A stretch of 64,000 nt of DNA, taken from contig NZ_OY781872.1 in the NCBI RefSeq assembly GCF_963677065.1, positions 1 to 64,000 of the forward strand. Direction: 5' to 3'. The DNA comes from an uncultured Methanoregula sp. (GTDB taxonomy: Archaea; Halobacteriota; Methanomicrobia; Methanomicrobiales; Methanospirillaceae). Both the position numbers and the translations under genes were made by a program. Positions 7,234-29,041 of this stretch are shown here, in pieces; position 1 is the first letter of the stretch; each line of letters begins with the position of its first letter. The notes below the pieces were generated by a model. The model worked only from the letters and a program-made list of their open reading frames with translations. It made no database searches and was not told the origin of the DNA.

Positions 7234-7273
7234 CCAGCCAAAGCAGCGCGCAGGTGTCCAGGAGCGCATTCAT
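7233..7273 (-). pseudogene. VapC-type PIN toxin, 5' remnant only
   Basis: An ATG at 7273 overlaps the antitoxin stop as ATGA, the usual layout of antitoxin-toxin pairs. It opens with MNALLDTCALLWL, the standard first strand of a PIN-domain ribonuclease including the first catalytic Asp. After about 13-14 codons the frame runs straight into the dispersed repeat (MKNGEWRRLNGE...), so more than 100 residues and the other acidic residues are missing. This is a broken toxin produced by the cassette boundary. Confidence 0.8.
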
Positions 7274-10209: not shown

Positions 10210-10362
10210 GTGAAGAGAGAAGAGTGAATTATGAAGAGTGAAACGGAACCCGGTTTCTGCATTCAATCTTCACTTTTCACCATTCCTTCGGTCCGCCTTT
10301 CGGCGTTCACCGATTCCACGACTGGCAAAACCTACCATTAGCATCTCGGTTGTCGGAGCGTT

Positions 10363-11370
10363 GTCTCCATTGCCTTTCGGCGTTCACCGATTCCACGACC
10401 ATGAAAGGTCGCCAAGCGGTGACCGATTATCTCGTCAGTCTCCATTGCCTTTCGGCGTTCACCGATTCCACGACCCAGAAATGGCGCACCGAGGCAAATG
10501 GTTGGCTGAGAGTTAGTCTCCATTGCCTTTCGGCGTTCACCGATTCCACGACAACAGTTTCAATGGTGAAACTGTTCCACTGTTTCCATCGTTGTCTCCA
10601 TTGCCTTTCGGCGTTCACCGATTCCACGACGAAATCCTTGGAAACGGTGGTGAGGCCAACGCTTGAGGTCTCCATTGCCTTTCGGCGTTCACCGATTCCA
10701 CGACAAAGTTTTATGGAAAAACTACAAGACATTTCGGATTCGGAGTCTCCATTGCCTTTCGGCGTTCACCGATTCCACGACTAGAAGCTGGTTTCGAACG
10801 TATTAACAAGCAGCTGTGGTCTCCATTGCCTTTCGGCGTCTACCGATTCCCCGACCGGCTTCCGTTGCGTCCGCCCCGTCAACAAATGACGGGTCTCCAT
10901 TGCCTTTCGGCGTCTACCGATTCCCCGACCGGCTTCCGTTGCGTCCGCCCCGTCAACAAATGACGGGTCTCCATTGCCTTTCGGCGTCTACCGATTCCCC
11001 GACACGTCGCAGAATCAGAACGCCGACACCACGAGCCCCGTCTCCATTGCCTTTCGGCGTCTACCGATTCCCCGACTAGAAGCTGGTTTCGAACGTATTA
11101 ACAAGCAGCTGTGGTCTCCATTGCCTTTCGGCGTCTACCGATTCCCCGACCGGCTTCCGTTGCGTCCGCCCCGTCAACAAATGACGGGTCTCCATTGCCT
11201 TTCGGCGTCTACCGATTCCCCGACACGTCGCAGAATCAGAACGCCGACACCACGAGCCCCGTCTCCATTGCCTTTCGGCGTCTACCGATTCCCCGACAAT
11301 GAACAAAAGGCTAGGGTTCTAGCCAGAATAGGAGTCTCCATTGCCTTTCGGCGTCTACCGATTCCCCAGC
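10363..11370. CRISPR. Orphan CRISPR array 1, 14 repeats of 37 bp
   Basis: Repeats start at 10363, 10438, 10516, 10594, 10668, 10745, 10819, 10893, 10967, 11040, 11114, 11188, 11261 and 11334. All begin GTCTCCATTGCCTTTCGGCG. The first six end TTCACCGATTCCACGAC. The last eight end TCTACCGATTCCCCGAC. Spacers are 36-41 nt. Three spacers are reused: TAGAAGC... (10782, 11077), CGGCTTCC... (10856, 10930, 11151) and ACGTCGC... (11004, 11225). The last repeat ends AGC instead of GAC. A degenerate half-repeat lies at 10295-10322 inside the dispersed family. The repeat is unrelated to that of array 2, and no cas genes for it are in the window. Confidence 0.92.
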
Positions 11371-11586
11371 TGAATAGCGAAGAGTGAAATAGGAAGAGTG
11401 AAGTGGGACCGATCCATTCACCGGTTTCTCCATTCAATCTTCACCCTTCACCATTCCTCCGGTCTGCCTTTCGGCGTTCACCACTTCCGGCACGGTAAAG
11501 AGAGAAGAGTGAAATAGGAAGAGTGAAATGGGACAGCTTCATTCGCCCTTCAATCTTCACTTTTCACCATTCCTCCGGTCCGCCTT

Positions 11587-12369: not shown

Positions 12370-15300
12370 GTTTCAATCCGCGCCCCGCGTCGAGACGCGG
12401 GGCGATTCGCCTGTTCCAACGCCGGCCCCGTCACTCCAATGTTTCAATCCGCGCCCCGCGTCGAGACGCGGGGCGATCCACGCTACGTACCCGGCCCCGC
12501 CGACCACGAACACGTTTCAATCCGCGCCCCGCGTCGAGACGCGGGGCGATCAAGGCGCCAAATCTTGGCGGACGCCAGCGACTTGTTTCAATCCGCGCCC
12601 CGCGTCGAGACGCGGGGCGATACGGCCTACGCCGACGTGCCCGTCCACAAGGACAAGTTTCAATCCGCGCCCCGCGTCGAGACGCGGGGCGATTTTAACG
12701 CGCAAGATTTCATTAAAACTCTGGACACGGTTTCAATCCGCGCCCCGCGTCGAGACGCGGGGCGATACCAATATATCCGTCCAGACGACATTCGCAGGAT
12801 GTTTCAATCCGCGCCCCGCGTCGAGACGCGGGGCGATTCCGTCTGGCTAAACATGCGCGTTTCCATCGTTACGTTTCAATCCGCGCCCCGCGTCGAGACG
12901 CGGGGCGATAACTGACGCGGTCGCAGTTTGGAGCGTGTACCCCTGTTTCAATCCGCGCCCCGCGTCGAGACGCGGGGCGATAGGCGCGCTCGGGTGTGAT
13001 CGCCGTCCCGCTGTTGTTTCAATCCGCGCCCCGCGTCGAGACGCGGGGCGATGAGGACGTAAGCGTTCGTGGCCGGGTTACCGAGGTTTCAATCCGCGCC
13101 CCGCGTCGAGACGCGGGGCGATATGGGGATGTGGTCGAGGGGCGCCGGCCTGTACATGTTTCAATCCGCGCCCCGCGTCGAGACGCGGGGCGATGATATG
13201 GATCTTGAATCCCTGGCCGGAAGCGTCCGGTTTCAATCCGCGCCCCGCGTCGAGACGCGGGGCGATCCGATGTGGACGTCCTGAACCTGAGCCCGTGAGG
13301 TGTTTCAATCCGCGCCCCGCGTCGAGACGCGGGGCGATAACGCGCTAGATTGCCCAAGAAAGCCGAATAAATCGTTTCAATCCGCGCCCCGCGTCGAGAC
13401 GCGGGGCGATTACAACTCCGCCAGGGAATTTCGCTTATAAGCGCAGTTTCAATCCGCGCCCCGCGTCGAGACGCGGGGCGATCTATCGCGTCGAAGACCG
13501 TAAAGAAAAGCGCGACTGGATTTCAATCCGCGCCCCGCGTCGAGACGCGGGGCGATTAGGGACGCCGCGCCGCGCCGCCCAGGCGACGGCGTATTTCAAT
13601 CCGCGCCCCGCGTCGAGACGCGGGGCGATTGGGACGGTGAGAAAATCCTATCGATGGGCAAGATTTCAATCCGCGCCCCGCGTCGAGACGCGGGGCGATC
13701 CTCGCCCAGGGTGACCTTGCCGCGAACGAATTGCGATTTCAATCCGCGCCCCGCGTCGAGACGCGGGGCGATGAGAGGGCCTTGACAGCATGCCAGGACT
13801 CGGCGCATTTCAATCCGCGCCCCGCGTCGAGACGCGGGGCGATGTGGAAGAACTCGCGGAGCTGGCGAGCGCGAAAGCATTTCAATCCGCGCCCCGCGTC
13901 GAGACGCGGGGCGATTTGGTCCAACGGACTTGCGCCCAGAGGCCGTCGGATTTCAATCCGCGCCCCGCGTCGAGACGCGGGGCGATGGGGTTGTGGACGC
14001 CGGGAAAATGGACAGTTCGGGATTTCAATCCGCGCCCCGCGTCGAGACGCGGGGCGATTCGACATCGAACGTGGCCAGCTTGGCTTGCGCGTCATTTCAA
14101 TCCGCGCCCCGCGTCGAGACGCGGGGCGATCCGTAGTAAGGAAACCGTTCGCACTCTGGATCGTATTTCAATCCGCGCCCCGCGTCGAGACGCGGGGCGA
14201 TAAGCTTACACCGGAAACAGTCGAGGCGATTCGTGCATTTCAATCCGCGCCCCGCGTCGAGACGCGGGGCGATGCGGGGTGAAAACGATAGCTGGTGACT
14301 TCGACTCATTTCAATCCGCGCCCCGCGTCGAGACGCGGGGCGATTTTACGCGCACGGGAGGCACACAGCCGCCGGCGAAATTTCAATCCGCGCCCCGCGT
14401 CGAGACGCGGGGCGATCACGGCGGGGCAAGCAATCGCGCGATTCACTCAGATTTCAATCCGCGCCCCGCGTCGAGACGCGGGGCGATGTTCGCGGGAATC
14501 GTGAGCCATTTGACGCGCTTTTATTTCAATCCGCGCCCCGCGTCGAGACGCGGGGCGATACTTGGCTCTCAAGCTCCTTCACCCGGTTGGTAATGATTTC
14601 AATCCGCGCCCCGCGTCGAGACGCGGGGCGATGCGGGCCAGTATGGCCAGCTCCCCACCCATTACATTTCAATCCGCGCCCCGCGTCGAGACGCGGGGCG
14701 ATCCAAATATCAAGGGGATGGTCCCACTCTCAAATCATTTCAATCCGCGCCCCGCGTCGAGACGCGGGGCGATCTCAACGTCCTCACCAGCGGCACCCCC
14801 GTCGTCTATTTCAATCCGCGCCCCGCGTCGAGACGCGGGGCGATGATCACGCGGGCCTTATCGGCCATCAGCGGCAAAATTTCAATCCGCGCCCCGCGTC
14901 GAGACGCGGGGCGATTTGCCGGGTGGAATATTGGGCGGGCCGATGATGGTATTTCAATCCGCGCCCCGCGTCGAGACGCGGGGCGATAACTGGACTTGGG
15001 GGCGCGAACGCTCGATCCTGAATTTCAATCCGCGCCCCGCGTCGAGACGCGGGGCGATGCTCAGTTTCGGACAGCTCCATGAAGTTGTTGATATTTCAAT
15101 CCGCGCCCCGCGTCGAGACGCGGGGCGATTCGGTCTTGAGCTGTGCCATTTCCGCCTTCGCCTTATTTCAATCCGCGCCCCGCGTCGAGACGCGGGGCGA
15201 TCTCGCCGAGTGCATCCAGCCCCGGCGGAGTAACGATTTCAATCCGCGCCCCGCGTCGAGACGCGGGGCGATACGCGCTTTCGCGGGTGGCTGCTGACAA

Positions 15301-18058
15301 TCTCGAAATTTCAATCCGCGCCCCGCGTCGAGACGCGGGGCGATAACAAAGCCGGGGATAGCGGGATATGGACTGAACTATTTCAATCCGCGCCCCGCGT
15401 CGAGACGCGGGGCGATAAGCATAATTGAAATCGGAATCGGCCTCATACTTATTTCAATCCGCGCCCCGCGTCGAGACGCGGGGCGATCACGCGCAAGCTC
15501 CTGGCTCGACTCTACGAGCCGATTTCAATCCGCGCCCCGCGTCGAGACGCGGGGCGATGGGATGGCCGCATCGTCGGCGGTGGCAACATTCATATTTCAA
15601 TCCGCGCCCCGCGTCGAGACGCGGGGCGATCTGTGATGACGGTTTCAATCTACCCGAATTGCGCTATTTCAATCCGCGCCCCGCGTCGAGACGCGGGGCG
15701 ATAAGAATCGATCACGAAGACTATCCGCGAAAAAATATTTCAATCCGCGCCCCGCGTCGAGACGCGGGGCGATCCGCTATTTGATTGGCAAATTAGGGTT
15801 GTGGAATGATTTCAATCCGCGCCCCGCGTCGAGACGCGGGGCGATCGAGCCAATCAAGACGCACAAGCCCCGAGGTGAATTTCAATCCGCGCCCCGCGTC
15901 GAGACGCGGGGCGATGTCAGAGATGGAAATTACCAAGGTGAATTGCGAGTTTCAATCCGCGCCCCGCGTCGAGACGCGGGGCGATACAAAACCAGGGATC
16001 GCGGGCTATGGGCTAAATTGTTTCAATCCGCGCCCCGCGTCGAGACGCGGGGCGATACGCGAAGACCCCAACGGTGTTCTCGGGGATAGATGTTTCAATC
16101 CGCGCCCCGCGTCGAGACGCGGGGCGATCCGGCCCGTGCGGCGAGGCGGTCGAGCTTGAGCAGTTTCAATCCGCGCCCCGCGTCGAGACGCGGGGCGATT
16201 TTAGGTAAACCCATCGTAACCAGCATGGTAACCGGGTTTCAATCCGCGCCCCGCGTCGAGACGCGGGGCGATACGGTGTGATGGCCACCCCTTGGTCCTT
16301 ACGGATGTTTCAATCCGCGCCCCGCGTCGAGACGCGGGGCGATGCTCACCGGGCACTTAGCGAGTGTCGGCACCGCCTGTTTCAATCCGCGCCCCGCGTC
16401 GAGACGCGGGGCGATGACACGCCATCATCTGCGCTGTCGTCTACACCGAGTTTCAATCCGCGCCCCGCGTCGAGACGCGGGGCGATCTGGAGCCCATCCT
16501 GTCCGGCGCCGTTCAGCGTGTTTCAATCCGCGCCCCGCGTCGAGACGCGGGGCGATCCGCGACGCCGGCGCCCCGGGTGGAATTCCTCCTGTTTCAATCC
16601 GCGCCCCGCGTCGAGACGCGGGGCGATGCCCGCCCAACGTCGGATGCTGATCCTGGATTGGTGTTTCAATCCGCGCCCCGCGTCGAGACGCGGGGCGATA
16701 AACACGCTCAGGTTGGTGGAGTTGGGATGGTATTGTTTCAATCCGCGCCCCGCGTCGAGACGCGGGGCGATCAGCCACCTCCTCTTCCATCGCGGCCGTC
16801 AATTTGTTTCAATCCGCGCCCCGCGTCGAGACGCGGGGCGATCAAGCGCCCGGCGGTCGGCGCGGCCCATGAGCTTGTTTCAATCCGCGCCCCGCGTCGA
16901 GACGCGGGGCGATTCTCCGCCCACGGCTCGGCGTCAACGATCTCGCGCAGTTTCAATCCGCGCCCCGCGTCGAGACGCGGGGCGATTTGACTAATCGCGG
17001 TCGGCGGCGCTGATCATTTGTGTTTCAATCCGCGCCCCGCGTCGAGACGCGGGGCGATTCTTGGCCAACGTCTCAACGACCAACGTCGCCATGTTTCAAT
17101 CCGCGCCCCGCGTCGAGACGCGGGGCGATGTGACGATCTGCTTGTCGATGCGCCCGGCATTGTGTTTCAATCCGCGCCCCGCGTCGAGACGCGGGGCGAT
17201 AGTCCGCCCGTATTCGGTTTGTGGGGCCAGTGAAGTTTCAATCCGCGCCCCGCGTCGAGACGCGGGGCGATATCCGGCGCACATAAGCCAGGAGGCCACC
17301 GAGAAGTTTCAATCCGCGCCCCGCGTCGAGACGCGGGGCGATGAGCCGTGTAAACCCAAGCCCGTGCTGTTTGTTTGTTTCAATCCGCGCCCCGCGTCGA
17401 GACGCGGGGCGATCCAACTCAGACCCCTCCGCGTTGGTGGGAACGGTGTTTCAATCCGCGCCCCGCGTCGAGACGCGGGGCGATTCCAATTCCACCGCCT
17501 CCCATCTTCATTTTGTATGTTTCAATCCGCGCCCCGCGTCGAGACGCGGGGCGATCTTGCCGATCTGCTCATAGATCAGCACGTCAACGGTTTCAATCCG
17601 CGCCCCGCGTCGAGACGCGGGGCGATCGATTACAAACGCGACTTCTTTTGTAACCACCACTTGTTTCAATCCGCGCCCCGCGTCGAGACGCGGGGCGATC
17701 TCCCACGAATCCCGATCGACGCGGCCGCAATACGGTTTCAATCCGCGCCCCGCGTCGAGACGCGGGGCGATCCGGGACCACATGAGCGTGCTGCTCACCG
17801 GTTGGATGTTTCAATCCGCGCCCCGCGTCGAGACGCGGGGCGATATCATTCCTCGAATGAAGTTTCGATCTGAAAGCGGTTTCAATCCGCGCCCCGCGTC
17901 GAGACGCGGGGCGATTCGTCAACCCTTGTGAAGTCGGAGAATATTGCTTTGTTTCAATCCGCGCCCCGCGTCGAGACGCGGGGCGATTGGCGGATTCCCC
18001 GGTATACAGGCCGGGGAGGCGGTTTCAATCCGCGCCCCGCGTCGAGACGCGGGGCGAT
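12370..18058 (-). CRISPR. Type I-C CRISPR array 2, 80 repeats of 37 bp, 79 spacers
   Basis: Eighty repeats lie at 70-74 bp spacing from 12370 to 18022 (starts), with spacers of about 33-37 nt. In the + orientation the repeat starts GTTTCAATCCGCGCCCC and ends GACGCGGGGCGAT. On the minus strand it therefore ends in ATTGAAAC, the usual type I-C handle, after a GC-rich hairpin of 9 bp (CGCCCCGCG/CGCGGGGCG) with a 6-nt loop. Transcription is thus inferred on the minus strand, with the leader next to cas2. At 37 bp the repeat is longer than the common 32-bp I-C form. The terminal base is variable in blocks: G in repeats 1-16 (12370-13446), A in 17-50 (13520-15879), G in 51-80 (15949-18022). Internal repeats are otherwise identical by eye. 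Confidence 0.97.
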
Positions 18059-18276: not shown

Positions 18277-18567
18277 TCACAGGACGAGCGGTTCGGTCAA
18301 ATCCACCGGTTCATGGACGCCGTGATGTTCAATGCCTTGGACGGCCTTCTGGTCCAGGAAATAGAAGCGCAGGGAGTCGGCGCCGGGATCCATTTCCTTC
18401 AGGAGCCGGTCGCGCAATTGAACCCATTCCTTTTGGCCGACTTGGCATTCAAAGACAGATTTCTGCACGCGGGTGCCGTAGTCCTGGCAGGCGAGCGCGA
18501 CCCGGCGCAGGCGCCGCCGGCCCGGCTTGTCAACGGTGCTCACGTCGTAGGTGACGATAATAAACAT
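18277..18567 (-). CDS. cas2: CRISPR adaptation protein Cas2 (type I-C)
   Basis: A 96-residue protein beginning MFIIVTYDVSTVDKPGRRRLRRVALAC. This is the ferredoxin-like beta1 with the conserved Asp (YDVST), followed by the helix in which I-C Cas2 proteins carry the G..RLRRVA motif. GTRVQKSVFEC is the second strand motif. Cas2 forms the scaffold of the Cas1-Cas2 integrase. It is last in the operon and directly abuts the leader. Between it and cas1 lie 140 bp of an AT-rich repeat instead of the usual tight junction. Confidence 0.95.
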   Translation of the reverse strand: MFIIVTYDVSTVDKPGRRRLRRVALACQDYGTRVQKSVFECQVGQKEWVQLRDRLLKEMDPGADSLRFYFLDQKAVQGIEHHGVHEPVDLTEPLVL

Positions 18568-18707: not shown

Positions 18708-19808
18708 TCATTTGGGGACAAACGGCAGGTAGGCGGGCAGGTCGCCGCGCAGGTGGCGGGCGAGCAGGCGGGCCTGGACATGGGGCAGCTGGGCCAGCCG
18801 CAGGTTTTGGTCGAGAATCGGGTGGGTCAGGGTCTCCTGTTTGCGTTCCTGGTAGGAGGTGATGGCCAGTTTGCGGCCCGCGTCGGTGAGTTCGACCGCG
18901 CCGCCCTCCCGCGCCGCAAAATGGGATTTGCCGATCTGCTGCCGGTTGATGAGAGTGATGGCCAGGCGATCGGCCAGCCAGGGCCGGAACTCCTCCATTA
19001 GATCCAGTGCCAACGACGGACGGTTCGGGCGGTCCACATGCAGGAAGCCCACGAACGGGTCCAGGCCGGCGGCGGTCAGGGCGGCGACGCAATCGTGCCG
19101 GACCAGGGCGTAGAGAAACGAGAGCAAGCAGTTGATCGGGTCCCGTGGGGGCCGGCGGTTGCGCGTGACGAGGTTGAAATCGGCCCGTTGCTGTTTGAGC
19201 AGGAGGGCGAACACGGAAAAATAGGTCTGTGCCGCCGCGCCTTCCGCCCCGCGGATCCTATCCAGCGTGGTCGTGGCGTCGCCGTCCGGGTGGGCCAAGT
19301 CGCGCAGTTGGCGCGCCAAAGCCTCGGCGGCCGCGTCCAGCTGGAGTTGTTCGCCGGGGTCGCCATTCTCGCGTGCGGCCCGGAGGACGCTGTTGCGGGA
19401 GTTTTGGAGCTTGCCCGCCACGACGTGGCGGGCGATGGCGGCGCAGCGGGCGGGATCGTCCGCGGCGCGGAACTGGGTGCGGCGGAGCATGACGCTGGTG
19501 TCGGCCACGCCCGTCATGCGGGCCTGGAAATGGCCGAATTCGCTCAGGAAATTCACGGCCACGCCGTGTTCCCAACACAGCTCGAGCGCGGGCGGGGTGA
19601 GAGTGCTGGGGCCGAATACGCAGATGGATTCGAGGTGATGGATGGGGATCGAGAGTTTCTTCCAGTCCACCACGGTTTCCCGGCGGCGCTCCGCGGCGGG
19701 CAGGTCCGGCGGATACAGCGGGACCTCCACCCGCAAGGTCAGATGATCCCGGTTCACAAACGTGCCGGTCGTAAGCAGGTAGAGCGTGTTTTGTAGGATC
19801 TCAGGCAT
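18708..19808 (-). CDS. cas1: CRISPR integrase Cas1 (type I-C)
   Basis: A 366-residue protein of normal length for Cas1c. The N-terminal beta domain starts MPEILQNTLYLLTTGTFVNRD. The metal-binding residues are Glu189 in IRGAEGAAAQTYF, His257 in FVGFLHVDRPNRPSLALDLMEEF, and Asp269 or Glu272 in the same motif. NCLLSFLYAL is the usual helix between them. With Cas2 it integrates new spacers at the leader-repeat junction, and with Cas4 selects PAM-adjacent prespacers. The start lies 2 nt after the cas4 stop. Confidence 0.96.
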   Translation of the reverse strand: MPEILQNTLYLLTTGTFVNRDHLTLRVEVPLYPPDLPAAERRRETVVDWKKLSIPIHHLESICVFGPSTLTPPALELCWEHGVAVNFLSEFGHFQARMTGVADTSVMLRRTQFRAADDPARCAAIARHVVAGKLQNSRNSVLRAARENGDPGEQLQLDAAAEALARQLRDLAHPDGDATTTLDRIRGAEGAAAQTYFSVFALLLKQQRADFNLVTRNRRPPRDPINCLLSFLYALVRHDCVAALTAAGLDPFVGFLHVDRPNRPSLALDLMEEFRPWLADRLAITLINRQQIGKSHFAAREGGAVELTDAGRKLAITSYQERKQETLTHPILDQNLRLAQLPHVQARLLARHLRGDLPAYLPFVPK

Positions 19809-19810
19809 GG

Positions 19811-20620
19811 CTAAATCTCAAAGAGCGCTTGCGCGATCCGGGCGAGCCGCGGGTCGCCGGAGGTCGCCTTGGGGAGGCAGATGTCGAAGAGGGAGCATTC
19901 GGCGCAGGCGGGTTTATCGACGGCGGGCGGGGCGTGGTCGGCCCGGGCCAACTGGCACAGGGCGGCGGCGGCTTGGGTGAACTCGCGCAACTCGGGCGTG
20001 AACGCCACCTCCCGGCGGCGTTTGCTGTCGGCGTGAAAAATCGCGCCGGTGGGGATGGCGATACCGAACATCTCCTCGAGGCAAAGCGCCTGGGCGCAAA
20101 GTTGGGCGTCGTCGTTCTCGAACTGCCGGCGCTTGCCCACCTTGAACTCCACCGGCTTCATATATTTCAGATCGCAGATCGCAGATTTCATATTGGGCAA
20201 GTCCGAGGCGATCGCGGCGTTTTGAACTTGGATTTGAGATATTTGATCTGCGATTGCCGTTTTAAAATATGAGATTTGAGATTTGCAATGTGAGATATTA
20301 GGGGAAACCTCCACGATATCGCACTTGCCGTTGAGGCCGAGAAGCTCGGAAAAAACGGGCAGGGCGCGCAGGAGAGTGACCCCCTTGGCGACCTCATAGC
20401 CAGGGAGGTCGGCGTGTTCATGGACAATATCCCCGCGCGCGGTGTGCTCGTTGGCGCTCCGCCACCCTTCGATGAGCTTCAACCCCGCCCGCCGCGGGCA
20501 GTAGAGATAATCGTTCAGGAGCGAGAGCGGCAAGAGCTCCCGCTCCTCGGGACTGGCCAGGGGCGAATGGGGGTTGTCGGTGAGGGTCACAATGCAGACT
20601 TCATTGATGGAATCTCCCAA
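19811..20620 (-). CDS. cas4: Cas4 exonuclease (type I-C) with in-frame repeat insertion
   Basis: A 269-residue RecB-like nuclease. The iron-sulfur cluster Cys residues are Cys41 in DYLYCPRRAGL and the C-terminal group in CAECSLFDIC. Nuclease motifs are GKCDIVE (Asp101), PVEFKVGKRR (Glu158, Lys160) and the QLCAQALCLEEM helix. Between Asp101 and Glu158, residues of about 106-154 are an extra Ser/Gln/Ile/Lys-rich stretch not expected in Cas4; its DNA is the AT-rich repeat family. The frame is intact across it. The ATG at 20620 overlaps cas7 by 34 nt. A GTG at 20590 overlapping the cas7 stop as GTGA is an alternative start. Confidence 0.93.
   Translation of the reverse strand: MGDSINEVCIVTLTDNPHSPLASPEERELLPLSLLNDYLYCPRRAGLKLIEGWRSANEHTARGDIVHEHADLPGYEVAKGVTLLRALPVFSELLGLNGKCDIVEVSPNISHCKSQISYFKTAIADQISQIQVQNAAIASDLPNMKSAICDLKYMKPVEFKVGKRRQFENDDAQLCAQALCLEEMFGIAIPTGAIFHADSKRRREVAFTPELREFTQAAAALCQLARADHAPPAVDKPACAECSLFDICLPKATSGDPRLARIAQALFEI
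20159..20305 (-). repeat. AT-rich repeat element inside cas4
   Basis: About 147 bp (49 codons) of AGATCGCAGATCGCAGATTT-type words with alternating orientation, matching the composition and words of the cas1-cas2 gap. The length is a multiple of three and no stop codon occurs in the cas4 frame, so the element is translated. This resembles protein-coding palindromic elements known from Rickettsia. Confidence 0.7.
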
Positions 20621-21831
20621 ATGATTCTCTGGGTAGTGACGATCGGAACCGAATTATTGCCTGCTGTGTTCTCTTGCTTCCTTTCACCCAAAGTTCCGTC
20701 TGGATATCGGCAAATCGCGCCTTCGGGGCACGTTCCGTGGTAATCAACGATCCTGCCGGCGTCACCGGCGCGCGGAAACTCGCTGCCGGAGGATTCAAAG
20801 ACTTCCTTCCCTTCAAGCGTAACTTTCTTGCCCTTCACGTCGACAAGCTCGAACAACTTATGTGCAGGGGCATTGCCAAGCGCCGATTGGTGCTGGAAGT
20901 CCACTAAGCCAACGACACGGAGAAATCGGCCCGCAGCCTGGTCGTCCCGGAACATGTTCGCGAGCGCGAACAAGAAGTTGTCCAGATCATAATAGGTGAA
21001 GCCGGTCTTGGCAGCGAAAGCGGGCGAGAAGTGGATGTGACAGCGATAAAGGCCGTAATCGATGCCGTGTTTGCGCCCCATGGTCCGATTTCCGCCGCTC
21101 TCTTCGTCCGGTTCCTTTTGCTGGTTGTCCTTCACGCTTGCCACCGCACAGCGAGTGATCGTCGTGTCGAGTTGGAGAACCTTGTCCAGGCTTTCCGCAA
21201 ACGTGAATTGAATCGGTCCACGGATTTGGCCATAAAAACTTCCCTTGAGCGGACCTTCGGTGGAGATTACTCCGCCGAAGGCGCGGAGATCAAAGAAGGT
21301 GCGGAGCAACGCGCGGCGGTATGCCTGCTTCTTAAAGTCCTCGGCTGGACTGACTTCCTCTTTCTCCGTTTGATCTGCCTGTTCGGGCTCTGGCTTTTCT
21401 TGTTTCTTACCCTTCCCGCCTTTTCTCTTGCTCTTCGAATCCCAAGCCTCAGGGTTTTGCCCCAACTCTCCACTAAATATTTGCCGAGCGAGCGTTTCGA
21501 TTTCGGGTGCCTTCATTGACTCTTCGAGCACAGCATTCTCGCGGATGAATATCTGGTAGCCGGGTGCGGTTACACCCTCTGGGCGAGGCGTGCCGTCAGG
21601 ATTATACAGACTGAAAAAATTGCGGACCTTGCGTTTCTGGCAAACGTCCGTGACCAACCCCTTCAGCGAGTCCGGTTGGATGCGCGGCATGTTGGCTGTG
21701 TCGGGGTCGCCGTTGGGATTCGACTTGGAGCAATCAAATAGGAAAACAATGTCGTGGCGCTCGGCGACAACGTCTGATGCCCCCTTACCGGTGGGGAGCA
21801 CAATGTGATGCAAGTGAGTTTCGTCTTTCAT
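20587..21831 (-). CDS. cas7: Cascade backbone Cas7 (Csd2, type I-C)
   Basis: A 414-residue protein starting with a short extension and then RHDIVFLFDCSKSNPNGDPDTANMPRIQ, the canonical Csd2 opening. Later motifs DLRAFGGVIS, GPIQFTFAESLD and YGLYRCHIHFSP are typical. It multimerises along the crRNA spacer. It is clearly longer than the usual 280-330 residues because of a Lys/Glu-rich linker (about residues 131-168, KSKRKGGKGKKQEK...) in the thumb-like region and a C-terminal part with an EFPRAGDAGRIVDYHG segment. It follows cas8c by 3 nt. Confidence 0.95.
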   Translation of the reverse strand: MKDETHLHHIVLPTGKGASDVVAERHDIVFLFDCSKSNPNGDPDTANMPRIQPDSLKGLVTDVCQKRKVRNFFSLYNPDGTPRPEGVTAPGYQIFIRENAVLEESMKAPEIETLARQIFSGELGQNPEAWDSKSKRKGGKGKKQEKPEPEQADQTEKEEVSPAEDFKKQAYRRALLRTFFDLRAFGGVISTEGPLKGSFYGQIRGPIQFTFAESLDKVLQLDTTITRCAVASVKDNQQKEPDEESGGNRTMGRKHGIDYGLYRCHIHFSPAFAAKTGFTYYDLDNFLFALANMFRDDQAAGRFLRVVGLVDFQHQSALGNAPAHKLFELVDVKGKKVTLEGKEVFESSGSEFPRAGDAGRIVDYHGTCPEGAICRYPDGTLGERKQENTAGNNSVPIVTTQRIIWEIPSMKSAL

Positions 21832-21834
21832 AGA

Positions 21835-23754
21835 TCAAACGATTGGGGTTGGGGTTTCGGATTGTTTGTTGGTCTTTTCGCGCTTCTTGAAGTGGGGCCA
21901 GTTCCCACAGCGTTTGCGCTCGTGATAGAAGCCGATTGCGAAGATGCCTTGTTCCTCCAGGGAGAGCATACGGGGAAACGCACCACGAGCAGTTTCCTTG
22001 AATTGAGCGACGACAGTCGATAGACCATCAAAGTCCTCGGCCATTCCATCAGCCCTTTCTGCGGCTGGCACCCCTGTTTCGAAGCGGCGGCGGTCGTACA
22101 ATGAGAGTTTGTCCAGGTGGTAGCGGACCAGCTGGCAGAGTTGTGGAAAAGCCAGCGCGGGAGTTTTTGAAGCCGCGCCATAGAGGCGCGTGGCCGGCGA
22201 CGAGGCCGACTTTCCCTCATGCGCCTTGTTGTGGATGTGATCGAGCATAGCGAGCAAGCGCCCGCAGAGAAAAGCCGTGCTGTGCTCGGGTCGAACGGAT
22301 GTCCTGTCGTAGTTTTCGTTCATGCTGATGCCTTTATTGAGGGTGAAATACACCCGAATCAAACTGGTGCGGGCGCGTAGGCGCTCCCCGAAGAGTTTCT
22401 CGGTGTGATCCTGGCCAGCCATCTCAACTTCTTGCCTGGAGATGGCGGCGGCGAGGATTTGATGCGGCAGCGGTTTGCCGAAGAGCGCCGATTCGAACAG
22501 CGCAGAATATGTGGCAGGGGCGGGCTTTGACTTTTGGCGCTTTGCCTTAGAGATCGTGGCTTCCGCGAGTTGGTTCAGCGTCGGACACCCTTCTTCCAAT
22601 GAATCCAAGCTCGTGGCGGCGAACCATTGTCTCAGGTGTTCTTGTGCGCGTGGAAGCGTATCCGTGTGCCAGGAGCGAACAGAGAAGCGTCCTTGGCCGG
22701 GGAGTATTGTTGCGGCGTAAAATCGGCCGGAATCTATCTGGACCGCCCGAGTGCCCCAAATACCCCGAAGAAAATCCCGCACCGCCAAGGAGTCGGATTG
22801 TTCCAACAGTCGGACGAAGGGCGCCGCTGAGGCTCGTGTTTTGCCCGCTTCGCCGTTGATTGGGAGTACCCAGAAGACAGCTGTTTCATCGCCGAGGTTC
22901 AATCGTGTGTCTTTACGCGACAGAAGCCAATTCAATCCAGCTGAGGTTTTTTCTGCCGTTTCCACGCGCATAGTCGATGTCTGCCGGCCCAGCCCGTAGC
23001 TGGTAAAGGGAGCCGAATTGAAGGAGGCAAATGGGATGCTGGAGAACACCGTGGGGAAGTATTCGGTAATCCGCCCCTCACCAGCCTGATACGCGTCTCG
23101 GCCAGGAGGAAGATGCTCCATGACCTCGGCCCTTTGCTTGCGCACTCGCTCGACCCACCATCGGCGCAGTTCGGAATCCGCGATCGCAATTCGACCGTTG
23201 ACGCGGAAGGAGAGTGTTTCTCCCTCCTGACTCGGTCGTTTACGAAAGCAATCGAGATTCTGACGAATCTGCGCCGGTAGAGGGAGATTCAGGAATCTGG
23301 GGCGTGAGCCTAGAAAGAGCCAGATCGAGCGAATTAGCCTGTTCTGCGGATTTTCCGAACGCGCTTTGAAAACGAGTTGCCAGAATTGCCTCCTTTTATG
23401 GCGAAACTTGTTTTCGCCATCAACACCATCATTGAATAGCTCATCCACCGGGCCGGTGAGGAAGTCAGGAAGCCAGTTGTGCTGATTCGTACCGACCGAT
23501 TGAAGTTCAGAGCGTCCCTTTGATTTAACCAAGGCCCACTGCATGTAGTAATTTGCCGAAACTTCGAATTCCTTGCCCCGTATTTCTTTGAGTTCGTCCG
23601 CTTTAGTTCGTTCGACGACTTTGGTTGTAGGACTAACGCCCAGGACCTCACCTTCCAGATCCAAATCAATGAACCAATGGATCGGCCGGCGACGCATCGC
23701 CTCCCAGCCCGTGATGTCGTTCAGTTCTGCGATACGAATGAGTTCGCTGATCAT
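21835..23754 (-). CDS. cas8c: Cascade large subunit Cas8c (Csd1, type I-C)
   Basis: The start at 23754 gives MISELIRIAELNDITGWEAM and overlaps the cas5 stop as ATGA; a longer frame from 23820 only reads cas5 DNA. The 639-residue product matches Csd1: WFIDLDLEGEVLGV, GKEFEVSANYYMQWALVKS, the KRRQFWQLVFKA core, SFNSAPFTSYGLGRQ (a recognisable Csd1 motif) and a helical C-terminus of the kind that can also yield the internally translated Cas11c small subunit. Cas8c recognises the PAM and recruits Cas3. An internal start for Cas11c was not pinned down. Confidence 0.94.
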   Translation of the reverse strand: MISELIRIAELNDITGWEAMRRRPIHWFIDLDLEGEVLGVSPTTKVVERTKADELKEIRGKEFEVSANYYMQWALVKSKGRSELQSVGTNQHNWLPDFLTGPVDELFNDGVDGENKFRHKRRQFWQLVFKARSENPQNRLIRSIWLFLGSRPRFLNLPLPAQIRQNLDCFRKRPSQEGETLSFRVNGRIAIADSELRRWWVERVRKQRAEVMEHLPPGRDAYQAGEGRITEYFPTVFSSIPFASFNSAPFTSYGLGRQTSTMRVETAEKTSAGLNWLLSRKDTRLNLGDETAVFWVLPINGEAGKTRASAAPFVRLLEQSDSLAVRDFLRGIWGTRAVQIDSGRFYAATILPGQGRFSVRSWHTDTLPRAQEHLRQWFAATSLDSLEEGCPTLNQLAEATISKAKRQKSKPAPATYSALFESALFGKPLPHQILAAAISRQEVEMAGQDHTEKLFGERLRARTSLIRVYFTLNKGISMNENYDRTSVRPEHSTAFLCGRLLAMLDHIHNKAHEGKSASSPATRLYGAASKTPALAFPQLCQLVRYHLDKLSLYDRRRFETGVPAAERADGMAEDFDGLSTVVAQFKETARGAFPRMLSLEEQGIFAIGFYHERKRCGNWPHFKKREKTNKQSETPTPIV

Positions 23755-24572
23755 ACCGTCACCACCTTCCCATTCTCGATGCGGTTGACAACGATCCATC
23801 CGGAGTTCGCTTTGGCACACAGTGACTGTGCGGCACTCAGTTTGGGCATACCCGTCTCGACATCGAAGACCCGCCCATCGAAGTCGTTCCAGAATTTGCC
23901 AAAATCGAAATCACGGAACGTAAACCCGAAATGGTCGTTCATCTTCGCCATTTCGGCCTGCTCCATGTTGGGCAATCGCCAAATGCACTTTCCGTCCGCA
24001 TCCAAGCCATTCCGTTCCTCGATGAGATCCCAAGCGCCCACCGAAAACTCGCGGCAACCGAAGAACGGTTGATAAAAGCATTGGCCAGCGCGGGCACGGC
24101 GGAGGAACATCTGATGGTATTTGGCTAAGACGTGTACCGCTTTCCAGCGCGGCTGGAGATGGCGCACGCCACCGGGCCCGAGATCGTCCTCAATTTCAAG
24201 GCAGGCCTCGATCAGGTAGTCCACGTTTTTGAGAATGAGGCTGTGCCGTTGGGCGCGTTTCTCTGTGATGTCGAAGCCGCGCGCGTTGCCGTAAGCAGGA
24301 TGGCTTTCATAGCCAAGTTCGTTACGAAGCAGCGGCACGAAGAAGCCCTTGCGGATGATACCCAGCCGCAGGATTTGCCAACGGAATCCTACCTTGTTGT
24401 GGCGGTTCGCCGCACCTGCTTTTTCGACTGGCTTCATGAGGATAGCCTCGAGGATTCCCCGCGCGGCGGAGGGTGTGATGACCGGGTAGCTCACGCGTTC
24501 GACGTGGAACTCCGGCATCGTGAAACAGGCGAAAGGGCCTTTGACACGAAGACAAATGGGGTCGGAAAGCAT
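23751..24572 (-). CDS. cas5: Cas5c, pre-crRNA endonuclease and Cascade subunit
   Basis: The start at 24572 (MLSDPICLRVKGPFACFTMPEFHVERVSYPVITPSAARGILEAI) is the family-typical N-terminus and lies 2 nt after the cas3 stop. A longer frame from 24782 only covers cas3. The 273-residue protein carries the glycine-rich and basic elements of Cas5c: HNKVGFRWQ, RHSLILKNVDYLIEA, QCFYQPFFGCREF. In type I-C, Cas5c replaces Cas6 and cuts each repeat at the base of its hairpin, leaving an 11-nt 5' handle, here expected to be CGGAUUGAAAC. Confidence 0.94.
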   Translation of the reverse strand: MLSDPICLRVKGPFACFTMPEFHVERVSYPVITPSAARGILEAILMKPVEKAGAANRHNKVGFRWQILRLGIIRKGFFVPLLRNELGYESHPAYGNARGFDITEKRAQRHSLILKNVDYLIEACLEIEDDLGPGGVRHLQPRWKAVHVLAKYHQMFLRRARAGQCFYQPFFGCREFSVGAWDLIEERNGLDADGKCIWRLPNMEQAEMAKMNDHFGFTFRDFDFGKFWNDFDGRVFDVETGMPKLSAAQSLCAKANSGWIVVNRIENGKVVTV

Positions 24573-24574
24573 AT

Positions 24575-27121
24575 TCACAATAATCCGGTAATAAGTTCGG
24601 CAGTAGTTTGACTCAGATCCTCGAAGTTGATTCCGGTTCCGTTGAGGCCACCAAGGTAGCCGGCGTTGCCGGCTTGCCAGATACGGAGATCGAGACCGTC
24701 GTCTGGGGCAAAGACGGGCTCTGTGTAGGGACGCAGCGTTGCCTGCACGGTTTTGGAGCGGGAGTCCAAGGCCACTATCCACGGTTGAATTCTGCGCCAG
24801 TCCTCACGGGTGAACCATCCATGGCTGGCTTCTCCAGGGATTCGGCGCATACGAGCTGCCTCGTGAATGGCGCGGGCTGGCGTTGAGACCGGTTTCCCAT
24901 CGATCACTTGATCCAGGACAAGCAAGGGCACACTATAGTCCTCAATCAATCTGAACAATTTGCTGACCTCCTCAAAGTGGAGCGCGGCGCGGTGCTCTTG
25001 AATCGGACATTCGTCCGGCATGCTGATTTGGTAAAGAAGCCGGAAATATTCGCCAAAGGAACTTGGATCTTCAGGAAGAGCACGGCCCATCTTGCGGAGT
25101 AGGGTCGTTTGAGCCGTGGCCGTGCCGTAGATTCCGGAACGGCCTTCAGGATCATCACCCTCCAAACGGAAGACACGGACGTTGCCCAAGCCTTTGAGCT
25201 TGCCCTCCCGGTTGCAGCGCCCTGCGGCCTGCACAATGGAATCGTAGGGGCCGTAAGCTCGCCAGACTTCTGGAAAATCTACGTCCACCCCTGCCTCAAT
25301 GCACTGGGTGCTCACGAGGAAACACGGCTCGTTGACGGACAAACGGCGGCGGACCTCTTCGAGAACCTGAAGGCGATGGGCGGGGACCATCCAAGTGGAC
25401 AAATGGAAGGTGGCATCAGATAGTCCCATCGCCATGGTTTTTGCCTGAACCGACGCGAATAAACGGCGGGCAGAATTTCGGGTGTTTACCACGATGAGAC
25501 ACTGCTTTTGTTCCTGAGCTGTGGCTTGGCTGGCGACTTGATCTGGAGTGAGCGTCTCGGGTTCCGCGTCTTTCTGAATCCCGGAATAAGTTACGCGCTT
25601 GAGAGTCTTGAAATGCCTTTCGGCGGTTTCTGGAGGAACGATATGCCGTATGTTTCGCAAGCCATGAGGAAATTCCTCTTGGTCGTGGCTAAGCGCCGGT
25701 TGAGTGGCGGTGCAAAAGACAGCCGAGCAGCCGTAGGGGCGATCGGGGCTGGTCAGTTGCCCCAGAACCTCCAGGATCGGCTGGAGCAGGTGCGGCGGAA
25801 GTGTTTGCACCTCATCAAAAATGATGACCGACTGCGCGATGTTGTGGAGTTTCCGGGCATCTGCTGGCCTTCGTGAAAACATGGAATCAAAAAATTGCAC
25901 GCTGGTGGTAACGACAATAGGAGCATCCCAGTTTTCAGCAGCCAGTTGGCGGAGTGACCGGGCCGGGGAGTAGTCGCCGTCCTTAGCTTGGCCTCCTTTC
26001 CGCTCGACCAGCAGGGGGTCCGCAGCGCCGCTGTGATGTTCCAAGACGACTCGTGTATGATTTGGGTCGTTGTTTTCCACCCACGCGCCTTCCTCGCCGG
26101 TTTCGGGATGCTTTACTTTTCGCCCAGTCTGTGGATCGGTGGCATCCTTGGCCCATACCAGGTCACCGAAGACTTTCCGCAATTCGAATGCCGTCTGTTG
26201 GATGATGCTTAGATAGGGAATAACGACAATTATGCGACGAATGGGGCGCCGATGAATCCCGTCGCAGTCGGCTTCATCTCGCGCGTGGGCATGCGCGTGA
26301 CACAAGGCGAAAAGCAGGGATGCGAGCGTCTTTCCTCCGCCTGTTGGGACCGCAAGGGAGAAAAGTCCACGCGGCAGGCTTGCCGCAGTTTTACAGAGAT
26401 CGCCGACCTCATCCCGAACGACTTGGACATCCCTTTGGCGCCCAGCCAGCGTCTCAGATACATTCCTTTTCGCCGTGATGAATTCTGTGGTCAGTTTGAG
26501 GAGCGCCCGGGCGTCAAAACTGCTCCATGCCTTGCGGTTCATCGAAGCATCTCGAGCTTCCGGGTCATTTTCTTCGGTGTCCAATCGGTCGGCGTCCACG
26601 AGTGCGCTGAAAAGGAAGCGGGTGTAAAGATCCACCGCAAGTAACTGCTCGTCCGAATCACCGGACATGCTTTCAATGTACTTAGGCAGAACGGAGCCGA
26701 AGTCGGATTGGAACGTAGTGCCAGTACTGTGCGCGAGTCGGATGCAACACCAGTCGGTTGCACGCTGAGAATAGTATCCACGCCGACCGTGCATGGAATC
26801 TAGGTCGTGGCGATTGTGAAGTCCAGCATGGTGTCCGGCGATAGCGAAGGCGACAGGCCACTGATCGTGCTTTAGCGCCAAGGCCGCGCCATGAAGAGCG
26901 TGCGGTTGCTTCTCGCCATCATCGTTGCCTCTTCCTGCGGCAAAATCTAACCGCTTCTGGAATTCAGGCTCCGCTTTCCCAACGTCGTGCAGCAAACCCG
27001 CCAAATGGGCGTGCTCTTCAGCGCTGAAATGAGCCGCGAATTCTTCGGCCCGGCGCGCCACCCCCGAAAGGTGATCGATGAGCAATTGATTCGGGTGGGC
27101 GAGGATTGTTGCGGCACTCAT
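24575..27121 (-). CDS. cas3: Cas3 helicase-nuclease (type I-C)
   Basis: An 848-residue protein with an N-terminal HD nuclease (His17, then LAGLLHDVGKAEPEFQ with His45-Asp46, later HALHGAALAL and IAGHHAGLH). The SF2 helicase follows: Walker A AVPTGGGKTLAS near residue 260, DEVQ in VIFDEVQTLPP, motif III FCTATQPAL, and motifs V-VI in CIEAGVDVDFPEVWRAYGPYDSIVQAAGRCNREG. It is the first gene of the cas operon. The start ATG at 27121 is about 55 nt downstream of a predicted transcription start. It unwinds and degrades DNA bound by Cascade. Confidence 0.96.
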   Translation of the reverse strand: MSAATILAHPNQLLIDHLSGVARRAEEFAAHFSAEEHAHLAGLLHDVGKAEPEFQKRLDFAAGRGNDDGEKQPHALHGAALALKHDQWPVAFAIAGHHAGLHNRHDLDSMHGRRGYYSQRATDWCCIRLAHSTGTTFQSDFGSVLPKYIESMSGDSDEQLLAVDLYTRFLFSALVDADRLDTEENDPEARDASMNRKAWSSFDARALLKLTTEFITAKRNVSETLAGRQRDVQVVRDEVGDLCKTAASLPRGLFSLAVPTGGGKTLASLLFALCHAHAHARDEADCDGIHRRPIRRIIVVIPYLSIIQQTAFELRKVFGDLVWAKDATDPQTGRKVKHPETGEEGAWVENNDPNHTRVVLEHHSGAADPLLVERKGGQAKDGDYSPARSLRQLAAENWDAPIVVTTSVQFFDSMFSRRPADARKLHNIAQSVIIFDEVQTLPPHLLQPILEVLGQLTSPDRPYGCSAVFCTATQPALSHDQEEFPHGLRNIRHIVPPETAERHFKTLKRVTYSGIQKDAEPETLTPDQVASQATAQEQKQCLIVVNTRNSARRLFASVQAKTMAMGLSDATFHLSTWMVPAHRLQVLEEVRRRLSVNEPCFLVSTQCIEAGVDVDFPEVWRAYGPYDSIVQAAGRCNREGKLKGLGNVRVFRLEGDDPEGRSGIYGTATAQTTLLRKMGRALPEDPSSFGEYFRLLYQISMPDECPIQEHRAALHFEEVSKLFRLIEDYSVPLLVLDQVIDGKPVSTPARAIHEAARMRRIPGEASHGWFTREDWRRIQPWIVALDSRSKTVQATLRPYTEPVFAPDDGLDLRIWQAGNAGYLGGLNGTGINFEDLSQTTAELITGLL

Positions 27122-27183
27122 GGCTTGGTCAATTTAGGAGACGTCTCATGTTAACTTAAGACAAATAACTAGTCATTGGCACT

Positions 27184-27212
27184 ACAGTACTTCTCGGCTC
27201 TGCCGAAGTCAA
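27184..27212 (-). promoter_or_regulatory. Predicted sigma70-type promoter of the cas operon
   Basis: Read on the minus strand, TTGACT (27212-27207) and TACTGT (27189-27184) are separated by exactly 17 bp. The expected start is near 27177. The stretch immediately downstream, AATGACTAGTTATTTGT (27177-27161), is the part that pairs with the pseudo-spacer of the divergent crRNA-like unit at 27263-27353. Promoter call is by motif only. Confidence 0.6.
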
Positions 27213-27262
27213 GGAGTCCGGGTGCGATTTTTTCTGGAGCGGGGCAGTATTGGATTTATAGT

Positions 27263-27353
27263 CTGTCTACGCCTCACGGCGCGGATTGAAACGATGATTA
27301 GTTTTTTGTGAGAAAACACCCTCTCCGGCTGCAAGGCCGGGCAGGGCGTTTTT
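27263..27353 (+). ncRNA. Candidate crRNA-like RNA (pseudo-repeat + pseudo-spacer) regulating cas
   Basis: On the + strand, divergent to cas3. A TATAGT -10-like box lies at 27257-27262 with no clear -35. Next is a shrunken repeat: CGCC-TCAC-GGCG mini-hairpin followed by CGGATTGAAAC (27282-27292), the complete 11-nt handle of array 2. Identity to the array repeat (minus-strand reading) is unbroken over 15 nt, GGCGCGGATTGAAAC. The pseudo-spacer starts at 27293 (GATGATTAGTTTTTTGTG). Positions 2-17 match the minus strand at 27176-27161 except at positions 6 and 12; 1 and 18 also differ. A terminator hairpin closes the unit instead of a second repeat. Effector binding there would cover the cas transcription start. 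The flank 5' of the target is GCC, not the usual I-C TTC, a weakness of this model. Confidence 0.6.
27319..27353 (+). terminator. Rho-independent terminator of the crRNA-like unit
   Basis: The stem is CCCT-CT-CCGGC / GCCGG-GC-AGGG around the loop TGCAAG, followed by CGTTTTT at 27347-27353. One C-C mismatch and one G-T pair interrupt the stem. Orientation matches the + strand unit. Confidence 0.6.
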
Positions 27354-27354
27354 C

Positions 27355-28435
27355 TGGCGGTCGTTGGTCCAGATAAGGAGGTCACGGGAACCAACCGGTT
27401 TCGCTGCCTTGGAACGTACCGGTCGATCAAAGCTCCCCAGCTGCAATCGGCGTTTTCTGGTGGCGTTCTGGAAACCAGTTTGATTACCTCCCCAAGATCC
27501 TGACGGATCTCGGAAATCACCTCGTCCCTCCCGAGGCCGCGTCGAGCCACCGACATCCTCGTGCTATCCGGCCCCCGGCGCCGGAGCGCCGGTGTTGACT
27601 GGCCGACCGAGGCCCGGGCGGGTTGGCCGTTCCGGGATTGCCACAGATGCGCGTAAGAATTCATAAAAGCCCTCAGGCCGGGGAAAACGCGTTGAAATCA
27701 TGTTTACAGAGGCTCATATTAGAACGCAACGCCTTTTTTGAGTTATTCGCGTCCGCAAACCCTCGCGGGTTCTTCCCGTCACGCGGGCCTAATGCCGGTT
27801 TCATGCCAGGAATCCTACCCCCCAGGGTGGGACATCTACGGGCCTACCCTTCGGCAGGGCTCGCCCTGCACCCCACACCGCCTTCGGCGGGTCTCCGCTC
27901 CGCATCCACCAGGAACGTCTAGCCACGAATGCACACGAATGGCCACGAATCAGACGAATTGCGTGGAGTGCGGCGACTCGTCGCCGCTTTTTCCCTGGTG
28001 GCTTGCCGACGGGTTGGGGTGAAGGGTTGACCACGCCGAATGGGTGTCAACCCATGGATTGGTTCGAGAACCGACGGCGCTCTCCCCACTGTAGCGGCGT
28101 TCGTGAGAACGCCGGTGACCTCGCGTCGCGCGCTGGCCATCCGAATGCCTCTCCCAATCGAGAAGGCGGCGCTCTCCCTATTGTAGCGGCGTTCGTGAGA
28201 ACGCCGGTGATATTGTCCTCGCGCGCTGGCCATCCGAATGCCTCACCCAATCGAGAATGCGGCGATCTCACGAGTTGCCGCTACAGGGGCTTTGTATATA
28301 TTAGTGTGGATTAGTGTGGATTAGTGGCTAAATATAAAGGTATGGTAATCATTTCGACCTGTTTTACCCCTCTTAATATAAAGGTTTCGACTTCGATCGC
28401 GACACGGGAAAAGGCAAGATAGGGTGAGGAAGCAT
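27355..28435. repeat. Intergenic repeats with GGCGTTCGTGAGAACGCC palindromes
   Basis: No convincing gene is seen. A minus-strand frame around 27660-27380 has a partly protein-like stretch (RDEVISEIRQDLGEVIKLVSRTPPE), possibly a gene relic. At 28080-28275 two copies of an about 115-bp unit carry the perfect hairpin GGCGTTCGTGAGAACGCC and CGCGCTGGCCATCCGAATGC. The same hairpin family returns at 52565-52720. Confidence 0.55.
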
Positions 28436-29029
28436 CAATAAACAGTCATCAGTCAACAGTCATCAGTCATCAGTCAACAGTCATCAGTCATCAGTCATCA
28501 GTCAACAGGCAACAGGCAACAGTCATCAGTCATCAGTCAACAGGCAACAGGCAACAGTCAACAGTCATCAGCAGGTAAGAAACAGTGATGATTATTTCAG
28601 TCTTCAGTGGCCGGACGCAGCTGTTTCGTGTTCAGCGTAAGACGCTCATACGCAATGACGAATACTGCTCGCTGCTGATGACTGGTGACTGTTCACTGTT
28701 TACTGATCACTTCTTCACCGGACCACATCGATCCATATCGGACCATTTCGGACCATTTCGGACCATATCGGACCATTTCGGACCATATCGGACCATATCG
28801 GACCATTTCGGACCATATCGGACCATTTCGGACCATTTCGGACCATTTCGGACCACATCGATCCATTTCGATCCAATACGATCCACTTGAGTATTTGCCG
28901 GGGGAAGGGAAATGGGGAGAAGATGGAATGGTGAGGAGTGAAGAGTGAAACGTGAAGAGTGAAACGTGAAGCGTGAAACGTGAAACGTGAAACGTGAAAC
29001 GTGAAACGTGAAACGTGAAATTCTGAAAT
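28436..29029. repeat. Three different short tandem repeats
   Basis: 28436-28570: irregular array of CAGTCATCAGTCAACAGTCA words. 28735-28880: an approximately 11-bp repeat, GGACCATTTCG/GGACCATATCG, about 13 units. 28940-29020: GTGAAAC repeats (AACGTGAA). All are non-coding; the ORFs through them are artefacts of periodicity. They run up to the ribosome-binding site of the next gene. Confidence 0.85.
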
Positions 29030-29041
29030 GGAGGAGTGAAT

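Follow-up and report, generated by a model that had tools for sequence, protein, structure and literature searches.

In type I CRISPR-Cas complexes, every sixth base is flipped out. CreR, the cas-regulating RNA, is named for types I-B, I-E and V-A in the available part of one review (PMC13131331), and is also covered in PMC12737573 and PMC12948488 (both in excerpt). For type I-B, the accessible sections of PMC8501985 describe a haloarchaeal CreA that may have one repeat followed by a terminator. In the same sections, the seed of two haloarchaeal CreA RNAs comprises positions 1–5 and 7–11, and positions 6 and 12, which do not pair in type I-B, could be changed without loss (PMC8501985). For type I-C, excerpts of PMC7684278 and PMC10865793 deal with the structure and PAM of Cascade, and one table lists the PAMs CTN, CCN, CTT, TTC, TTN and TTT (PMC8482600, in part). 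A literature search of partial sources, which did not extend to the primary CreR paper (Liu et al. 2023), found no type I-C CreR.

We analysed a window of 64,000 nucleotides from an uncultured Methanoregula sp., which carries a complete type I-C set of cas genes followed by an array:

24575..27121, minus strand: cas3, from a profile search
23751..24578, minus strand: cas5c, starting at ATG 24572, two bases past the cas3 stop, or at GTG 24578, overlapping cas3
21835..23820, minus strand: cas8c (csd1), at 178.6 bits below the NCBIfam cut-off of 218.65 and above that of Pfam
20587..21831, minus strand: cas7c (csd2), profile match
19811..20620, minus strand: cas4, profile match
18708..19808, minus strand: cas1c, profile match
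18277..18567, minus strand: cas2, profile match
12370..18058, minus strand: I-C CRISPR array of 80 repeats of 37 nt, from reading the array

Cas7c and Cas1c scored above the NCBIfam cut-offs, while Cas5c and Cas8c scored below them, yet above those of Pfam; the best NCBIfam model for cas3 was the I-G one, with a score far under its cut-off. The cas3 product matched proteins of Verrucomicrobia MAGs nearly end to end at 49–54%, and those of family members in separate parts only (up to about 52%), so the cas locus may have been acquired horizontally.

The array repeat reads ATCGCCCCGCGTCTCGACGCGGGGCGCGGATTGAAA(C/T). In the middle of the array (window 13520–15900), 34 of the 80 repeats do not contain GCGGATTGAAAC exactly; the displayed copies from this part have T as their last base, where copies at both ends of the array have C. 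The 37-nt repeats of a second CRISPR array at 10286–11383 (GTCTCCATTGCCTTTCGGCG...) are unrelated to these, and blocks of its spacers are duplicated. Elsewhere in the window, short tandem repeats (CGGACCATTT, CAGTCATCAGT-like and GTGAAACGT) lie at 28391–30959, inside and beside an ORF whose match to a terminase small subunit is sub-threshold. An Rfam search of the window gave nothing beyond two equally scoring Acido-Lenti-1 RNAs, spaced by about 850 bases (49911–49957 and 50765–50811, minus strand).

Divergent from cas3 lies a short unit with a single repeat relic, composed as follows:

27257..27262, plus strand: possible −10 of the unit, TATAGT, found by reading and absent from the promoter scan
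27270..27281, plus strand: psi-repeat hairpin CGCC-TCAC-GGCG, from sequence, fold and comparison with the array repeat
27282..27292, plus strand: handle of 11 nt, CGGATTGAAAC, identical to that of the array
27293..27318, plus strand: pseudo-spacer of 26 nt, GATGATTAGTTTTTTGTGAGAAAACA
27319..27354, plus strand: terminator-like hairpin and T tract where a second repeat would be, from the fold and absent from the terminator scan

The initial annotation had described a solitary repeat relic with CGCC-TCAC-GGCG and the full 11-nt handle, and direct reading agreed. The psi-repeat hairpin retains the 4 bp at the foot of the array-repeat stem, and the upper stem is gone. In the 3.17 Mb genome, GCGGATTGAAAC occurs 47 times, with 46 copies in the array and one at the unit, and a search with the reversed pattern as control gave 0 matches. 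As looked for in a CreR, an ectopic repeat with a handle and a processing hairpin adjoins the cas genes. The terminator proposed after the pseudo-spacer was upheld by the fold and not by the scan: the segment 27263–27353 folded at −36.2 kcal/mol (z −3.63, equalled by 0/200 shuffles) and included a long hairpin on its 3ʹ side and T5, whereas a simple terminator scan listed none for the unit. A transcription start directed by TATAGT would fall just ahead of the psi-repeat hairpin, and no good −35 was seen upstream of it by reading.

The pseudo-spacer partially matches the region where cas transcription would start, which involves three further elements:

27184..27212, minus strand: cas promoter-like TTGACT-17-TACTGT, found by reading and absent from the promoter scan
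27178..27180, minus strand: GCC flank of the target, found by reading, a probable PAM from spacer homologues
27161..27177, minus strand: protospacer-like target, matching at 14/17 with mismatches 1, 6 and 12, from guide comparison, shuffles and genome search

The minus strand at 27177–27161 reads AATGACTAGTTATTTGT, with which the pseudo-spacer agrees at positions 2–5, 7–11 and 13–17. Extended to 18 positions, the comparison shows mismatches at 1, 6, 12 and 18, the same as those first annotated. In the seed (1–5 and 7–11), 9 of the 10 positions match, with position 1 mismatched as a possible G-T wobble, so that the mismatch of the first base, already named as a weak point, stands. The cas promoter TTGACT-17-TACTGT, as initially proposed, is present by reading at 27212–27184 on the minus strand and unlisted by the promoter scan, because its 8/12 agreement with the sigma-70 consensus falls under the limit of 9; the sole site in that scan, 27132–27105 (minus strand), overlaps the start of cas3. 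A start from TTGACT-17-TACTGT would fall about at position 1 of the target. Considering that cas5c starts two bases after the cas3 stop or overlaps it, there is no room for a separate Cascade promoter, so that the Cascade genes have no obvious promoter other than the matched one upstream of cas3. An inverted repeat, CTTCGGC-AGA-GCCGAG (27190–27208), occupies the spacing of the proposed −35 and −10 and is a possible operator; its RNA fold was no better than that of shuffles.

A match of at least 14/17 arose in 7/20,000 dinucleotide shuffles of the 141-nt intergenic region and in 8/20,000 shuffles of the spacer. When positions 6 and 12 were left unscored, the observed match was reached in 0/20,000 shuffles of either, and both this omission and the match length of 17 were chosen post hoc, after the match had been seen. 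None of 1,351 other window segments reached it. The 14 matched positions occur exactly at the unit and the cas promoter only in the 3.17 Mb genome, with one further place at one mismatch. These counts indicate a partial match of the guide to the predicted cas promoter beyond chance. The only other full seed match, at genome position 2,667,070, is flanked by CCA and was set aside. When TTC or CTC was required, the guide had no target in the intergenic region (best 5/15), and genome-wide a canonical TTC target had 0 exact sites and two one-mismatch sites, far away. The guide and the cas leader have the same sense, which excludes antisense action on the leader, and only the template DNA strand could be paired. 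From its build and its target, the unit is likely to encode a type I-C CreR-like autorepressor RNA for the cas genes.

The flank of the target, GCC rather than TTC, had been counted as a weak point of this reading, and this objection is largely removed by the viral homologues of four protospacers, which are flanked by GCC. The spacers concerned are:

16057..16091, minus strand: spacer 28, matching by translation a phage protein with DPNxVLGDRW; GCC at 3/3 motif sites
15986..16019, minus strand: spacer 29, matching a phage helicase with TKPGIAGYGLN; GCC flank
15774..15808, minus strand: spacer 32, matching the N-terminal part of the helicase of spacer 29; GCC flank
15345..15379, minus strand: spacer 38, sharing the site of spacer 29; GCC flank

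The evidence consists of protospacer homologues and not of exact protospacers, the best being 28/34 for spacer 29, 30/34 for spacer 38, 25/34 for spacer 32 and 19/35 for spacer 28. By reading, spacers 29 and 38 are two versions of one protospacer that differ at third codon positions, and a degenerate IMG/VR search for their helicase peptide found 7 contigs, with a 5ʹ flank of GCC in 7/7. Among 82 viral loci (two of which, L171 and L176, are one contig, and the contig matches overlap), GCC flanked 17/18 matches of at least 24/34 for spacer 29, 38/39 for spacer 38 at the same site, and 7/7 for spacer 32, elsewhere in the helicase gene. Scores of 24–25, like those of spacer 32, also arose by chance (22 control matches in 0.92 Mb), and spacer 32 was counted because its matches sit at one place of one gene; at a limit of 20, 17 of its 123 matches lay in the helicase context, with GCC in 17/17, and its helicase motif was preceded by GCC at 54/54 sites. 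Spacer 28 had a translated match of 18–19/35 bases, with GCC in 4/4 matches of a second scan. The helicase match of spacer 34, also by translation, was flanked by GCA in 3/3 and, in the second scan, by GCA, CCA and GAA once each, which says little because the codon there differs from that of the spacer. Other spacers among the 110 tested (80 of the window and 30 of the genome G394) gave scattered matches with mixed flanks at the level of controls; spacer 1 had no viral match in IMG/VR, and the array had none among 50,697 phages. At the homologous viral sites the flank is fixed by a conserved Trp codon. GCC makes up 2.6% of triplets in these viral contigs, and by simple arithmetic three independent GCC sites would be expected at about 2 in 100,000. 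Judging from homologues of the protospacers of four spacers at three sites, GCC is probably the PAM of this system, which turns the flank of the cas target into support and, if true, would extend the published type I-C PAM table (PMC8482600, seen in excerpt).

A minor possibility is a decaying CreR that once repressed cas and whose guide and target are drifting apart with little effect now. The mismatch at position 1, the poor −35 and the seed of 9/10 would suit such decay, as would the lack of a homologue in 393 other genomes; against it, the remaining non-flipped positions up to 17 still match, the GCC flank is intact, and so are the handle, the hairpin foot and the terminator-like hairpin. 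The initial annotation had proposed that guide and target be compared for covariation in related genomes, which the window locus does not permit because the upstream stretch is shared by 0/393 other genomes.

The autorepressor reading gains from similar units elsewhere. We surveyed 46 I-C loci from genome contigs, 12 family I-C loci, one array stretch, 23 stretches upstream of cas3, two 19-kb loci and the window (85 stretches in total, some overlapping) for a solitary handle with at most one mismatch together with a full seed behind a PAM, or with 14/15 outside positions 6 and 12. This yielded L032 (Nguyenibacter), L036 (Clostridiales), L038 (Acetobacter persici), L045 (Gluconacetobacter diazotrophicus), G147, G127 and the window, and one full shuffle of the survey gave 0 pairs. 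Eleven further pairs were dropped as array- or repeat-derived or as chance: one of L027, nine of L164 (stemming from two handles, 13348 and 13477) and a second pair of the window. A hairpin-plus-handle scan of 83 stretches added L050 and L047, and proves little alone because its 24 matches compare with a shuffle mean of 9.3. L044 (Acidocella aquatica) was found in a control scan over 75 loci. In all, units were present in 7/46 genome-contig loci, the criteria having in part been chosen afterwards. A further 14 I-C loci on plasmids (from 56 records) served as a fresh set and contained one unit with a target, L253 (Tistrella mobilis), against 0 in shuffles; within this set, Nitratidesulfovibrio vulgaris had no unit with a target, and L263, with a hairpin and a handle-like string, had no target and was rejected.

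Ten other I-C loci thus carry a like unit (L032, L036, L038, L044, L045, L047, L050, L253, G147 and G127), whose seed, incomplete in some, matches sites in the cas3–cas5 gap, just upstream of the Cascade genes. Unit and target both lie between cas3 and cas5 in the first eight of these, while G147 and G127 have their unit upstream of cas3, in divergent orientation, and the target at the cas3 end or in the cas3–cas5 gap. The PAMs of the ten are TTC (8) and CTC (2), compared with GCC in the window. Ten units were scored, namely the window and the others except L044: the seed was 10/10 in L032, L036, L038, L045 and G147, 9/10 in the window, L253 and G127, and 8/10 in L047 and L050. A long terminator-like hairpin stands 3ʹ of the pseudo-spacer in 7/10 scored units, the window included, as well as in L044, and is weak or not evident in L050, G147 and G127. 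The guide of L044 has two sites, one on either strand, where it matches positions 1–10 and mismatches at 11; at 7222–7273 of this locus, two inverted target copies stand behind TTC between cas3 and cas5.

With a PAM required, shuffles reached the observed score in 0–7/2,000 for the ten scored units. Without this requirement, they reached that of L045 in 45/2,000 and that of L050 in 330/2,000, which makes the L050 target weak. Mismatches fell on positions 6 and 12 in 16/20 cells and elsewhere in 21/150; as most units were found ignoring these two positions, 16/20 is what free positions would give and no excess. When other position pairs were ignored in 75 loci, full 10/10 matches numbered 0, 0, 1, 0 and 2, compared with 5 for 6/12, whereas at a limit of at least 9/10 the counts of 13, 9, 11, 13 and 10 versus 14 were not discriminating. 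L012 and L100 from this control scan were dropped after inspection, and L014, L023, L024, L028 and L098 appeared only in its control rows.

Upstream of cas3, 0/12 family I-C loci had a hairpin-plus-handle unit, and the one-mismatch handle-like strings of L101, L103 and L109 were rejected, none having a hairpin. The locus with the most similar cas3, L011 (54%), contains GCGGATTGAAAA and, 22 nt on, a 13/15 match (6/5,000 shuffles), and was rejected as a 22-nt tandem duplication without a hairpin. A relaxed scan allowing three handle mismatches gave mostly array-derived pairs, with 6 and 3 pairs in two shuffles, and was not used; a scan of the 1.2 kb upstream of cas3 for GAAA together with a PAM and a full seed found G147 only, with 1, 0 and 1 in shuffles. 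The A. persici region had no match when compared with plasmids. Units of similar build recur in other type I-C loci, as read from these sequences.

G147 and G127 are two species of one genus, in which 2/25 genomes have the unit, and the first bases of their guides differ (TCATT versus CTATT). The G147 guide fits CTC-TCATTACTTAT with a seed of 10/10. The G127 guide fits CTC-CTATTATTTATCGGAGA at 14/15, a site within a 21-base stretch absent from G147, and fits the counterpart of the G147 site, TTC-TCATTGCTTAT, at 8/10. In this one comparison, guide and best predicted site differ together, by way of a new site and with no plain compensatory change.

A protein regulator could instead bind a DNA operator (ATGAnTAGTTnTTTGT) present twice, once downstream of either divergent start, and a motif copied near two divergent promoters would give the same picture. 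We consider this improbable, since one copy begins a single base past the handle, the mismatches fall on 6, 12 and 18, the flank is GCC, and a like build recurs with unrelated motifs in other I-C loci. Slightly less probable still is an antitoxin of the CreTA/CrePA type, whose guide mainly represses a toxin and addicts the cell to Cascade. The RNA is built like CreA and annotation can miss small RNA toxins, but the target sits at the cas3 promoter, the guide has no other full match genome-wide, and the four ORFs of 99–151 aa at 27209–28314 have no Pfam match, the mini-ORFs of the leader being judged by eye. It is very unlikely that the unit is a solitary repeat of phage origin (Racr) or a neutral remnant of an array: I-C Racrs exist (PMC10651486, in excerpt) and the ORF with the terminase-like match (E 0.067) is 1.7 kb away, but the unit adjoins a complete cas operon, where a Racr would be encoded by a mobile element away from cas genes, the pseudo-spacer of the unit matches the cas promoter, and there is no second exact handle near by.

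The reading first offered, a regulator like CreR or CreA, is therefore the best supported, from sequence only, with the probable GCC PAM and the like units in other I-C loci in its favour. Under such autorepression, the unit would be transcribed from about 27265 into a short crRNA-like RNA, which Cas5c would cut at the foot of the small hairpin, leaving the normal 11-nt handle and the 5ʹ end CGGAUUGAAACGAUGAUUAG. Type I-C Cascade would assemble on this RNA, with the terminator, in the place of a second repeat, defining the 3ʹ end, and would bind the cas promoter and start region behind the probable PAM GCC, blocking transcription of cas3-cas5-cas8-cas7-cas4-cas1-cas2, while the pairing would be too short for destruction of the target by Cas3. 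When array crRNAs or anti-CRISPRs draw Cascade away, repression would ease, and the Cas supply would track demand. More broadly, and with somewhat less assurance, we think that self-regulation of type I-C Cascade recurs, each time through a guide with one repeat and a terminator, aimed at whatever drives the Cascade genes, the window holding a member with a GCC PAM. If true, type I-C would join the systems with RNA-guided cas autorepression, here by a natural guide with one repeat; named strains with like units are Gluconacetobacter diazotrophicus PA1 5, Acetobacter persici and Tistrella mobilis.

Compared with known systems, as the available parts of the papers cited describe them, the unit shares a degenerate-repeat RNA with scaRNA of Francisella Cas9, which guides transcriptional repression by a partial match and differs in working with Cas9, on lipoprotein genes (PMC9458426). 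Like the Racr RacrIC1, it is a solitary I-C repeat mimic; Racr is a virus- or plasmid-encoded inhibitor, whereas the window unit adjoins cas and has a matching spacer (PMC10651486). With CreA of CreTA (Haloarcula hispanica, type I-B) it has in common one psi-repeat followed by a terminator, and it fits the I-B CreA seed rule (1–5 and 7–11) except at position 1; CreA represses a toxin RNA, whereas the target here is the predicted cas promoter and no toxin was found among four nearby ORFs searched with Pfam (PMC8501985). The closest likeness in target is to CreR, a crRNA-like RNA with a partial match to the cas promoter, for which autorepression by the cognate effector is described and for the present unit is putative (PMC13131331, PMC12737573). 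Unlike CreR, the unit, known here from its sequence, belongs to type I-C, consists of one repeat and a terminator-like hairpin, and probably uses a GCC PAM.
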